From: Methylophaga sp. OBS4
GTDB taxonomy: Bacteria; Pseudomonadota; Gammaproteobacteria; Nitrosococcales; Methylophagaceae
Direction of reading: 5' to 3'
Assembly (NCBI RefSeq): GCF_026319305.1
Contig: NZ_JAPDMV010000013.1
Location: 1 to 64,000 of the forward strand
DNA: 64,000 nt
The notes under the pieces were generated by a model, which ran no database searches, was not told the DNA's origin, and saw only the letters and a program-made list of their open reading frames with translations. Positions within the stretch are counted from its first letter, which is position 1; every line of letters starts with the position of its first letter. The position numbers and the translations under genes were made by a program. Positions 48,024-51,859 of this stretch are shown piece by piece.

Positions 48024-48557
48024 TTATTCCAGGTTAGCGTGTCTTGCTTTCATTTCTTCTTCAGGGATGCCTTTTTCGTGAATCATGTGAGACACGATAG
48101 CTTCCAGAAAGATCAATGTAGAAAGTTCAAACATGGTGCCCATAGGCATACCCTTGGTAGGGGCATACATATCATCACCACCGACTTGAACCACAGCATC
48201 TGCCATGTCGCCAATAGTAGATTTCGAACGAGAGCAGATCAGTACGATTTTGGCACCGACTGATTGTGCTTTCTTAGTGAAAGCCTGCAATTGTTCAGTT
48301 TCACCAGAACCCGAGATGATGACCAGCAGATCACCCGCCTTGATGCTGGGTGTGACGATTTCACCGACAACACTAACGTCATAACCACTATGCATCAGTC
48401 GCATAGCCAGGAAATTTCCGACCAGCTTAGACCGCCCCGCACCTGAAATATAGATACGGTTTGCGTCGTCAAACATAGCGGTTAGCTGTGCTTCATATGC
48501 TTCTTCTGTTGCACCAAGCAAGCTGCCGATTTTGTTTAAGATTAAATCACGATGCAT
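48024..48557 (-). CDS. hxlB: 6-phospho-3-hexuloisomerase
   Basis: A 177-aa SIS-domain isomerase that converts D-arabino-3-hexulose 6-phosphate to fructose 6-phosphate, the second step of formaldehyde fixation in the RuMP cycle. The SIS pattern is IYISGAGRSKLVGNFLAMRLMHSGYDVSVVGE and LLVIISGSGETEQLQAFTKKA; the C-terminal DDMYAPTKGMPMGTMFELSTLIFLEA is typical of PHI. It starts 13 bp after hps1, so both are expressed together, and it is followed by a strong terminator. Confidence 0.95.
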   Translation of the reverse strand: MHRDLILNKIGSLLGATEEAYEAQLTAMFDDANRIYISGAGRSKLVGNFLAMRLMHSGYDVSVVGEIVTPSIKAGDLLVIISGSGETEQLQAFTKKAQSVGAKIVLICSRSKSTIGDMADAVVQVGGDDMYAPTKGMPMGTMFELSTLIFLEAIVSHMIHEKGIPEEEMKARHANLE

Positions 48558-48570
48558 AGTTCAAATCACC

Positions 48571-49206
48571 TTATGCTGCGTCAACCAGAGCACGCAGTTC
48601 TTTAGCAGATTCTGCCGGAGAAGGCGCACCGTAGATAGCTGCACCAACAACAACGATATCCGCACCAGCTTGAACAGTGCTTTGGATAGTGTCTTTGTTG
48701 ATACCACCAGCAACAGAAATTTTAACGTTCAGACCCAGACCAGCAATGGTTTTCAGATCTTCAAATGGTGTTTGACCAGCAGCTTGTGCGTCCAGACCAG
48801 TGTGAACACCGATAATGTGCGCACCGTTATTTGCTGCTTCTTTAGCAACAGCGGCTTTGTCTTCAACGCCGATCAGATCGATTTGAGCTTCAGCATTGTT
48901 GGCATTAGCTGCTTTGATAACACCTTTCATGGTAGCCATGTCAGAAGCACCCAGAACAGTCGTGATGTCACCGCCTGCTTCAAAGAAAGGAGTCGCTTCG
49001 TATTCACCTGCGTCCATAGTTTTCAGGTCAACCAGGATTTTCTTATCCGGGTGGGCCGCTTTCAGTGCTTTAACCAGTTTCAGACCATTGTATTTGATAC
49101 ATGGTGTACCGATTTCCAGGATATCAACGTAAGGGGCGACTTGTTCAGCCAGCGCCATTGTTGCGTCGAAGTCCAGTGAATCTAGAGCCATTTGGATTTC
49201 AGCCAT
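48571..49206 (-). CDS. hxlA: 3-hexulose-6-phosphate synthase (copy 1)
   Basis: A 211-aa barrel enzyme that condenses formaldehyde with ribulose 5-phosphate. I use the ATG at 49206 (AGGAG upstream); the open frame extends further but without family sequence. The orotidine-decarboxylase-superfamily motif VDLKTMDAGEYEA (about 61-73) and the catalytic HTG in IIGVHTGLDAQAAGQTP are present. It pairs with hxlB in a two-gene unit under the promoter at 49271-49299. The copy at 51127-51768 is about three quarters identical by eye and identical over the last stretch SPAESAKELRALVDAA. Confidence 0.95.
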   Translation of the reverse strand: MAEIQMALDSLDFDATMALAEQVAPYVDILEIGTPCIKYNGLKLVKALKAAHPDKKILVDLKTMDAGEYEATPFFEAGGDITTVLGASDMATMKGVIKAANANNAEAQIDLIGVEDKAAVAKEAANNGAHIIGVHTGLDAQAAGQTPFEDLKTIAGLGLNVKISVAGGINKDTIQSTVQAGADIVVVGAAIYGAPSPAESAKELRALVDAA

Positions 49207-49270: not shown

Positions 49271-49299
49271 ACTATATGCAGAAATTGGCAAAGTGTCAA
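49271..49299 (-). promoter_or_regulatory. Promoter of hps1-phi
   Basis: On the minus strand TTGACA (49299-49294) and TATAGT (49276-49271) are separated by exactly 17 bp, 65 bp before the start codon of hps1. The -10 context CTGCATATAGT resembles those before hps2 (CTGCTTTATAGT) and tal (CTGCTTTATAAG). Confidence 0.8.
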
Positions 49300-49363: not shown

Positions 49364-50365
49364 CTAATTAGTTGTAATTAGCGTTTCTTCCAAGCTTGCC
49401 AGACGGTCGGCAAGTAATGCTTCCAGTGATTCCAATGCTTTAGCAAAACCGTCGATACCTTCTGACAGTTTTTCAGAAGCCATGCGGTTTTCAGCGTGCA
49501 TGGCATCAAAAGTCGCTTTGTCCATGTGGATTTTTTCGATATCTGATTTTGCAGCTTGTTCTGGAGACAGTTTACGTGGCAGCTCGCCTTCAGTTGATTG
49601 CAGCTCGTCCAGCAGAGCAGGAGAGATGGTCAACAGGTCAACACCAGCCAGTTCAGTGATTTCGCCGACGTTACGGAAGCTTGCGCCCATAACTTCAGTG
49701 TTATAACCGAATTTTTTATAGTAGCTGTAAATTTGAGCGACAGACAACACACCTGGATCTTCTGCTGGCTCGTATGAATCACGGCCGGTGTCTTTTTTGT
49801 ACCAGTCCAGGATACGACCCACAAACGGTGAAATCAGTGTGATGCCGTTTTCAGCACAAGCAATCGCCTGGTGCAGACCAAACAGCAATGTCAGGTTGCA
49901 GTGAATACCTTCTTTTTCCAGAACAGCGGCAGCCTGAATACCTTCCCAGGTTGATGCGATTTTGATCAGAATGCGGTTGCGGTCAACGCCAGCTGCTTCG
50001 TATTGAGCAATCAGGTCACGACCTTTTGCAATGGTGGCTTCAGTATCGTAAGACAGACGCGCATCTACTTCAGTAGAAACACGGCCTGGAATGATGTCCA
50101 GGATTTTTAGACCGAATGAGACAGCCAGACGATCAAATGCCAGCGAAACCACTTCCGCAGCAGGTGCATCTGCACCTAGCGTTGCGCGTGCTGCTTTCAA
50201 CGTATCGTCAACGATACCTTGGTATTGAGGCATTTGAGCGGCAGCAGTAATCAGAGAAGGGTTGGTTGTAGCATCACGTGGAGTGAATTTTTCGATAGCC
50301 TGGATATCGCCGGTATCGGCAACAACAACAGTCATCTCCTTTAGCTGATCAAGTAAGTTAGCCAT
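49364..50365 (-). CDS. tal: Transaldolase
   Basis: A 333-aa class I transaldolase starting at the ATG at 50365 (AAAGGT upstream; the open frame runs on to 50461 without family sequence). [15 protein letters not shown] near residue 35 and the Schiff-base lysine in [16 protein letters not shown] near 130 are diagnostic, as is [14 protein letters not shown]-like text ([18 protein letters not shown]). It rearranges sugar phosphates in regeneration of ribulose 5-phosphate, so it belongs functionally to the RuMP cluster in which it lies between hps1 and the repeat protein. Confidence 0.95.
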
Positions 50366-50513: not shown

Positions 50514-50804
50514 TTAGCCTTTATTTTGGATGTAACGCTCCACACTTGTCAGCGGTTTGGCACCTGCCTGATTGCGGACATATTGTTCAACACCCGTTAG
50601 CGGTTTGCTGTTGGTCGTCTGACTTCTGATGTAGCGTTCAACTCCAGTTAATTGTATGCCTTTTTGTGCCTGATTTCTGATATAGCGTTCAACACCAGTC
50701 AGGCCATCATTTGCAGCAGCAGCTGATTGAGTACTGGCTGGGCTAGGTGAAAACAGACTTTTGACAAAGTCACAGATTGAAACAAATACACCTTTATCAT
50801 TCAT
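50514..50804 (-). CDS. Small protein with four LTGVERYIRNQ-type repeats
   Basis: I do not recognise a named family. From the ATG at 50804 (AGGGG 8 nt upstream; an ATG at 50837 lacks a site) the protein is 96 aa. Residues 1-34 contain a hydrophobic-amphipathic segment (VFVSICDFVKSLF) and a Ser/Ala/Pro linker. Four repeats follow at 35-45, 52-62, 69-79 and 85-95: LTGVERYIRNQ, LTGVERYIRSQ, LTGVEQYVRNQ and LTSVERYIQNK, spaced 17, 17 and 16 residues, joined by linkers of mostly small and polar residues. The constant L-T-x-V-E-x-Y-[IV] core in flexible sequence resembles a multivalent linear binding motif. It lies between hps2 and tal on the same strand, so it may organise RuMP enzymes (inference). 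Confidence 0.7.
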   Translation of the reverse strand: MNDKGVFVSICDFVKSLFSPSPASTQSAAAANDGLTGVERYIRNQAQKGIQLTGVERYIRSQTTNSKPLTGVEQYVRNQAGAKPLTSVERYIQNKG

Positions 50805-51064
50805 GAGCAATACCCCTATTACATTTTTGAACCCCATCTGCCCAACATAACGAGGTTGGTAGAACGGGTAAATTACTATTTTAGATTAACTGTGGCAAGC
50901 CAGAAGAGTTAACAAAAAAGCGTGTGTATGAATGCTTCTCAGTTTTCAGCCACGTTATTATTATTGTCAGTCACCTTGTTCTGTATGCAGAATTTTAATG
51001 ACTCTTATCAACGCTTCAACCCATCGATTTCAGATTCAGAACTGAAGTTAGCGTTAATGAAAAA
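50805..51064. other. Gap upstream of the repeat-protein gene
   Basis: This gap should hold the promoter of the repeat-protein gene on the minus strand, but no strong hexamer pair is visible. On the plus strand a 50-codon frame (50928-51080) with a hydrophobic start (FSATLLLLSVTLFCM) runs into the hps2 terminator; it lacks a ribosome site and I do not call it a gene. Confidence 0.4.
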
Positions 51065-51097
51065 AAACGAGCGGCCATTAAGGGCCACTCGTTCTTA
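51065..51097 (-). terminator. Rho-independent terminator of hps2
   Basis: The 11-bp stem AACGAGCGGCC (51065-51075) with GGCCACTCGTT (51082-51092) contains one G-U pair and is followed on the minus strand by a T-run. It stands 30 bp after the hps2 stop, so hps2 is monocistronic. Confidence 0.9.
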
Positions 51098-51126: not shown

Positions 51127-51768
51127 TTAAGCTGCGTCAACCAGAGCACGCAGCTCTTTAGCAGATTCTGCTGGAGAGTCAGCGCCGTAAATAGCAGCAC
51201 CAACAACAACGATGGTAGCACCAGCACGGATAGTATCCTGGATGGTGTCTTTGTTCAGGCCACCGGCAACAGAGATACGGACACCCAGGTTCAGATCAGC
51301 GATTTCTTTCAAATCAGCAAAAGGTGTTTGGCCAGCGGCTTGCGCGTCCAGACCGGTGTGAACACCGATGATTTGCGCGCCATTTTTGGCTGCTTCTGTT
51401 GCAACTGCTTTCTTGTTTGAAACGTTAATCAGGTCGATTTGCGCTTCAGCGTTGTTAGCGTTAGCCGCTTTGATAACACCACCCATGGTGGCTTTGTCTG
51501 AAACACCCAGGACAGTACAGATGTCAGCACCTGCTTCGTAGAAAGGAGTGGCTTCGTATTCACCGGCATCCATAGTTTTCAGGTCAACCAGGACCAGATT
51601 GTTAGGGAATTTGTTTTTCAGCGCGGTGACGATTTCAAGGCCGTTGTATTTGATGCAAGGAGTACCAACTTCCAGAATATCGACGTAAGGGGCAACTTGT
51701 TCTGCAAGTGCGATTGTTTGATCGAAATCCAGAGAATCCAGTGCCATTTGAATAAGTGCTTTTGCCAT
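51127..51768 (-). CDS. hxlA: 3-hexulose-6-phosphate synthase (copy 2)
   Basis: A 213-aa second hexulose-phosphate synthase, with the same motifs as copy 1: VDLKTMDAGEYEA and IIGVHTGLDAQAAGQTP. It differs mainly in surface positions and has two extra N-terminal residues (MAKALIQMALDSLDF). It has its own promoter and terminator. Two expressed copies suggest either dosage or different induction, for example by methanol versus methylated amines (inference). The strong conservation of both ends hints at recent tandem duplication or gene conversion. Confidence 0.95.
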   Translation of the reverse strand: MAKALIQMALDSLDFDQTIALAEQVAPYVDILEVGTPCIKYNGLEIVTALKNKFPNNLVLVDLKTMDAGEYEATPFYEAGADICTVLGVSDKATMGGVIKAANANNAEAQIDLINVSNKKAVATEAAKNGAQIIGVHTGLDAQAAGQTPFADLKEIADLNLGVRISVAGGLNKDTIQDTIRAGATIVVVGAAIYGADSPAESAKELRALVDAA

Positions 51769-51829: not shown

Positions 51830-51859
51830 ACTATAAAGCAGATTGATTGATCATGTCAA
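51830..51859 (-). promoter_or_regulatory. Promoter of hps2
   Basis: On the minus strand TTGACA (51859-51854) and TATAGT (51835-51830) are separated by 18 bp, about 62 bp before the start codon. The surrounding text ATCTGCTTTATAGTCTGC resembles the -10 regions of hps1 and tal, so a shared regulator is conceivable. Confidence 0.75.

Follow-up and report, generated by a model that had tools for sequence, protein, structure and literature searches.

A small gene of the Methylophaga RuMP cluster, here called rep, encodes a protein carrying four copies of a short motif, and arrays of this motif were found in the RuMP clusters of two separate orders, in both soluble and transmembrane (TM) proteins. 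We consider these arrays very probably to be functional multivalent motif proteins of RuMP methylotrophs, and they probably act as scaffolds or tethers. The chances that their partner is a RuMP enzyme, with hexulose-6-phosphate synthase (Hps) as the first candidate, appear evenly balanced. The window, i.e., the whole stretch of DNA that was analysed, spans 64,000 nucleotides.

The rep gene and its protein

The original prediction described a small repeat protein at positions 50514-50804 and left the strand unstated. The coordinates were right, and the gene was found to lie on the minus strand; the plus strand of this interval is interrupted by five stops. The features of the gene are as follows.

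50514-50804, minus strand: rep coding sequence, 96-residue repeat protein, ATG at 50804 and stop at 50514-50516; orthologues in approximately 30 Methylophagaceae genomes
50745-50792, minus strand: amphipathic N-terminal segment, residues 5-20, GVFVSICDFVKSLFSP; from the orthologue alignment and hydrophobic moment; candidate peripheral membrane anchor
50670-50702, minus strand: motif unit 1, LTGVERYIRNQ, residues 35-45
50619-50651, minus strand: motif unit 2, LTGVERYIRSQ, residues 52-62
50568-50600, minus strand: motif unit 3, LTGVEQYVRNQ, residues 69-79
50520-50552, minus strand: motif unit 4, LTSVERYIQNK, residues 85-95

The protein reads MNDKGVFVSICDFVKSLFSPSPASTQSAAAANDG-LTGVERYIRNQ-AQKGIQ-LTGVERYIRSQ-TTNSKP-LTGVEQYVRNQ-AGAKP-LTSVERYIQNKG and is composed of a conserved amphipathic N-terminus, a polar linker and four T[GS]VE[RQ]Y[IV] motifs. 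The motifs begin at residues 36, 53, 70 and 86, which gives the spacings of 17, 17 and 16 that had been claimed. The four-repeat array is real, and two motifs occurred in none of 200,000 residue shuffles of the protein. In pairwise comparisons, 6-10 of 11 residues were identical between units, as against 20-28 of 33 nucleotides; the units are alike in protein and less so in DNA, which indicates old repeats and no fresh duplication. When compared with two close orthologues, the motif blocks showed synonymous to non-synonymous ratios of 16:7 and 17:6, while the linkers showed 12:13 and 7:15. The short amphipathic segment predicted ahead of the repeats was also recovered, with a hydrophobic moment of 0.40-0.48 that was equalled by only 0.7-2.5% of shuffles; this segment may bind the membrane. 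The rep protein gave nothing above the curated cut-off in Pfam or NCBIfam and no match in the plasmid and phage collections searched.

Genomic neighbourhood and transcription signals

In agreement with the original prediction, rep lies between hps2 and tal, and both neighbours were confirmed by Pfam (HUMPS and TAL_FSA). The surrounding features of the window are listed below.

51127-51768, minus strand: hps2, hexulose-6-phosphate synthase (Pfam HUMPS), upstream neighbour of rep and candidate partner
49364-50365, minus strand: tal, transaldolase (Pfam TAL_FSA), downstream neighbour of rep
48571-49206, minus strand: hps1, hexulose-6-phosphate synthase (Pfam HUMPS)
48024-48557, minus strand: phi, hexulose-6-phosphate isomerase with a SIS domain (Pfam SIS)
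51063-51096, minus strand: terminator-like hairpin after hps2, 14 pairs followed by a T run
50805-50905, minus strand: conserved block upstream of rep, with promoter-like TTGCCACA...AAAATAGTAATTT followed by a leader containing a palindrome and the ribosome-binding site AGGGG; from orthologue alignments

Because of the terminator-like hairpin after hps2, rep would be a separate transcript. Approximately 90 bases upstream of rep were conserved far more than the rep linkers. The arms of the leader palindrome seem to covary in distant relatives; RNAalifold on the leader alignment gave no support for a hairpin, leaving base-pair covariation unconfirmed, and the leader had no match in Rfam at the gathering score. 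A near-consensus promoter-like site, TTGACA-17/18-TATAGT, was also observed upstream of hps1 (49271-49299) and hps2 (51830-51859), and with these sites the cluster seems to consist of several strong separate transcripts.

Conservation in Methylophagaceae

The order hps2-rep-tal-hps1-phi was kept in eight distinct public loci, including that of Methylophaga aminisulfidivorans, all eight of which were also flanked by dhaK, a HAD phosphatase gene and leuC. The same synteny was found in further Methylophagaceae genomes, and hps2 showed 89-96% identity together with conserved synteny among the compared relatives. Matches at E <= 0.01, a count that takes rep-like small proteins and ChpA together, were present in 33 of the 58 sampled relatives, all of them Methylophagaceae. 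The sampled neighbouring family, which is without Hps, contained no motif matches, and the reduced genome G024 lacked both Hps and the motif. The small protein carried between two motif copies (L056, with the N-terminus MGLFSSILGMFKGL) and eight (G070).

Arrays in Methylococcales RuMP clusters

A class-wide search led first to the distant genome G309 and then to its order of methanotrophs; the Methylococcales and Methylophagaceae labels of the sampled genomes were assigned from gene content and named loci. G309 contained tandem hps-phi-tkt cassettes, a 458-residue protein with approximately 14 units and a four-unit signal/TM protein. Before corrections, arrays were found in 76 and Hps in 93 of the 121 genomes of this order. 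Two genomes initially scored as motif-negative (G880 and G888) both have a variant TM protein, and one scored as Hps-negative (G921) has its Hps cut at contig ends. After the two variant arrays had been added and the one Hps restored, 78 genomes contained an array and Hps, none an array only, 16 Hps only and 27 neither, counts for which kinship inflates any p-value. The complete genome G864 has RuMP genes and no array; since some complete genomes have the RuMP genes without it, the array is inessential for the pathway.

The link between motif and RuMP genes, for which a search of methylotroph genomes had been suggested, was strong: 45 of the 47 arrays on hps-bearing contigs lay less than 6 kb from hps by their listed coordinates, and the array was inside a RuMP cluster in 17 of the 20 regions first fetched. 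The typical order was hps-phi-tkt-[TM protein]-[long soluble protein]-tal-fba. The TM protein opens with a signal-like sequence and contains a pair of YPAADFxPKVxY units and a hydrophobic span; its C-terminal tail bears three to four motifs in most cases and five in two further genomes. The second protein is long and soluble and contains up to 18 motifs. From the signal-like start and the positive-inside rule, the motif tail of the TM protein should be cytosolic. Among the other cluster genes, phi did not occur in the second cassette of three genomes (G919, G881 and G839), and the Methylophaga clusters had no tkt. The M. capsulatus-like locus L180 reads as broken frames in the sequence analysed and was not used as evidence.

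On the Hps tree, the array-bearing loci need two label changes, which would fit a single gain and a single loss; so few changes, together with the synteny, can also come from shared ancestry. In the locus L106 (G309:C1:3513198-3527716), three identical hps copies were observed in tandem cassettes, and since hps, phi, tkt and the long array protein gene repeat identically there, a recent amplification of the whole cassette is indicated.

Motif consensus and database searches

Over 454 units, the consensus was [TS][GS]Vx[KR]Y[LI]xx[QK]. In each of four protein types, V was conserved in 100% of the units and Y in 98-100%. The lineages differed in their bias, with arginine and isoleucine in Methylophagaceae and lysine and leucine in Methylococcales. 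With a broader model, arrays were found in five of the 350 Gammaproteobacteria genomes sampled, which span 262 genera; all five belonged to Methylophagaceae or Methylococcales. The original prediction would have been undermined by absence of the protein from other RuMP clusters or by abundance of the motif in unrelated proteins; the arrays proved to be present in the RuMP clusters of the two orders, and the gammaproteobacterial sample contained none outside the two groups.

No Pfam or NCBIfam family covered the motif of the Methylococcales arrays at the curated cut-off. Two Pfam families, U1snRNP70_N and ATP_synth_reg, exceeded their cut-offs on a long array with no single passing stretch and were taken to be composition artefacts. 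A PDB sequence search returned nothing significant. We found no description of TGVxKYL arrays in the literature covered, subscription papers and preprints lying outside that coverage, and motif strings searched in papers gave nothing relevant; the word "metabolon" in PMC5802761 denotes the company and was discarded.

Arrays outside RuMP clusters

The only other array in the genome of the window was found in a 1986-residue ChpA/PilL-type protein with five Hpt domains, HATPase, CheW and a receiver, where the motif array sits in the linker among the Hpt domains.

G000:C57:44171-44623, outside the window: ChpA motif array

ChpA proteins of other Methylophagaceae (L042-L055 and L110) carried 2-7 units in this linker. 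In the Methylococcales genomes whose array ORFs were fully listed, none of these ORFs was ChpA. The ChpA copies may connect motility sensing with C1 metabolism. Additionally, G919 encodes a second TM protein with three units just upstream of the methanol dehydrogenase operon (TIGR03075, MoxJ), and G847 encodes a 261-residue protein with four units approximately 3 kb from fae and 5 kb from mch. Relatives of the latter were found near dxs/gloB (G895), near oadA (G889) and, in G309, among unremarkable genes. C1 genes are thus the main, but not the exclusive, setting of the motif. We also observed that this non-RuMP array family combines 4-9 units with a C-terminal CQA..KGTQCKN...QHNN.FKP region, for which Pfam gave no match above cut-off. 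Its members include the following.

L163:7148-8485, L170:8761-9525, L175:8300-9046 and L177:8481-9374: array proteins with the CQA..KGTQCKN region

Since the motif occurs in ChpA and near dxs/gloB and oadA, its ligand need not be a RuMP enzyme and may be a more general hub. Such a hub (polar, membrane-organising or cytoskeletal), which the arrays would bring to the products of RuMP, methanol dehydrogenase and H4MPT loci as well as to ChpA, would suit the units among the Hpt domains and the C-terminal region shared by the array proteins near dxs/gloB, oadA and fae/mch. However, RuMP clusters house by far the most arrays and all of the longest ones, and relatives without Hps contained none; we consider this explanation rather unlikely.

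Structural models of rep and its neighbours

AlphaFold (AF2) models were built from L009 as single chains, Hps2-rep and rep-Tal, in which the intergenic stops were read as serine so that enzyme and array were joined. The motifs had pLDDT values of 31-51 in the Hps2-rep chain, compared with approximately 90 for Hps, and of 24-40 in the rep-Tal chain, where Tal itself was only moderate; few alignment rows covered rep in either case. The motifs docked to neither Hps2 nor Tal. With Hps present as a monomer and few rows for rep, the undocked motifs are weak evidence. With motifs at such low confidence, the models gave the scaffold claim no help. In that claim, the multivalent, linear-motif-like arrays and their RuMP link stood firmly across the two orders, and Hps, Phi or Tal as the partner is so far unsupported.

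In both models, each unit formed a short isolated helix in a low-confidence, disordered-like chain. A T/S N-cap followed by V..Y[IL] would place one hydrophobic face on such a helix, and the modelled units resemble helical linear motifs of the kind that fold upon binding.

Proposed role

On balance, we favour a membrane-held, multivalent linear-motif adaptor of formaldehyde assimilation that clusters its partner, with Hps as the leading candidate. Each [TS][GS]Vx[KR]Y[LI]xx[QK] unit would be a short N-capped helix docking weakly and repeatedly on a cytosolic partner. In Methylophagaceae, the array would be held at the inner membrane by the N-terminal amphipathic helix, a role that the TM segment would fill in Methylococcales. 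Several partner molecules could then be gathered beneath the membrane, at the site of formaldehyde release by periplasmic methanol dehydrogenase. Hps would be the most parsimonious partner and is our first candidate because hps lies beside nearly all RuMP-linked arrays. The suggestion of the original prediction that the protein tethers enzymes near the membrane has become likelier, as the Methylococcales versions carry a signal sequence, a TM segment and a C-terminal motif tail. The anchors differ by lineage while motif and locus are kept, which suggests that membrane position matters, and multivalency with free spacing points to avidity or clustering.

The array could also bind and switch a RuMP enzyme, with ChpA sensing the same enzyme and thereby tying motility to C1 flux. 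A model for such a regulator is CP12, the switch of GAPDH and PRK in the Calvin cycle, which resembles rep in being small, probably disordered and tied to sugar-phosphate carbon fixation. In keeping with such a role, rep is small and disordered-like, is encoded beside its presumed target and is preceded by a conserved promoter-like and leader region of its own. In contrast to CP12, rep has a repeated motif and a putative membrane anchor, and the Pfam scan found no CP12 domain in it; moreover, 2 to 18 copies and a possible TM anchor suit avidity or tethering better than a stoichiometric switch, which makes regulation improbable. Alternatively, the repeats could have no dedicated partner and form a low-complexity tail that drift or repeat expansion has maintained in the operon. 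Copy number and linkers do vary freely between species, but V and Y are nearly invariant throughout the 454 units, most changes within the motif blocks are synonymous, and arrays are retained in most sampled Methylococcales and Methylophagaceae; we find this alternative hardly credible.

A membrane-held adaptor would bear on how gammaproteobacterial methylotrophs channel toxic periplasmic formaldehyde to cytosolic Hps. A lineage-wide motif system in the RuMP cluster, existing in membrane and soluble forms that probably share a ligand, offers a concrete, genetically testable answer, and it would supply parts for engineering synthetic methylotrophy.

Comparison with known systems

In the algal pyrenoid, the soluble linker EPYC1 carries repeats of one Rubisco-binding motif, which is also present on the tubule membrane proteins RBMP1/2 (PMC10473226). 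We regard EPYC1 as the closest working analogue of the array system, which may work like it. Both have a short helical motif, as predicted for the arrays, repeated along a disordered protein and present in a soluble linker as well as in TM proteins (here, in the Methylococcales RuMP cluster), and both are linked to a carbon-fixing step and confined to one lineage. There are also differences. The array pathway is that of formaldehyde, not CO2, in bacteria, and it is known here from sequences and models; the array motif is additionally found in a chemosensory kinase. The Rubisco-binding motif of EPYC1 contains W, whereas the rep protein has no W and the conserved array residues are T, V and Y. 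The analogy would extend to a pyrenoid-like, membrane-tethered formaldehyde-fixing assembly, in which Hps is condensed by the soluble linkers and pinned by TM or amphipathic tethers beneath the methanol dehydrogenase layer, with ChpA docked; this fuller picture is tentative, and we lean against it.

The carboxysome scaffolds CsoS2 and CcmM likewise gather a carbon-fixing enzyme through repeated weak binding units. The arrays share the repeated units and, in place of a shell, have a putative membrane anchor. Pfam and NCBIfam gave no match to a CsoS2 or CcmM domain in the array proteins, and no shell protein genes stood out in the cluster's ORF lists. The hybrid chemosensory kinase ChpA/PilL shares the same motif units with rep in Methylophagaceae, but rep is without any of the Hpt, CheA, CheW and REC domains of this 2000-residue kinase.

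A second repeated motif in the TM protein

We also observed a second repeated motif, YPAA[DN]FxPKVxY, of which the Methylococcales TM protein (e.g., L159:8130-8798) has two copies in its N-terminal part, which is probably periplasmic. It was also present two to three times in separate proteins of approximately 90 residues with signal-like starts.

L157:7659-7931, L161:7941-8216, L213:7483-7779 and L214:8389-8652: proteins of approximately 90 residues with YPAA[DN]FxPKVxY

Two of these small proteins are encoded between tkt and the gene of the long array protein.
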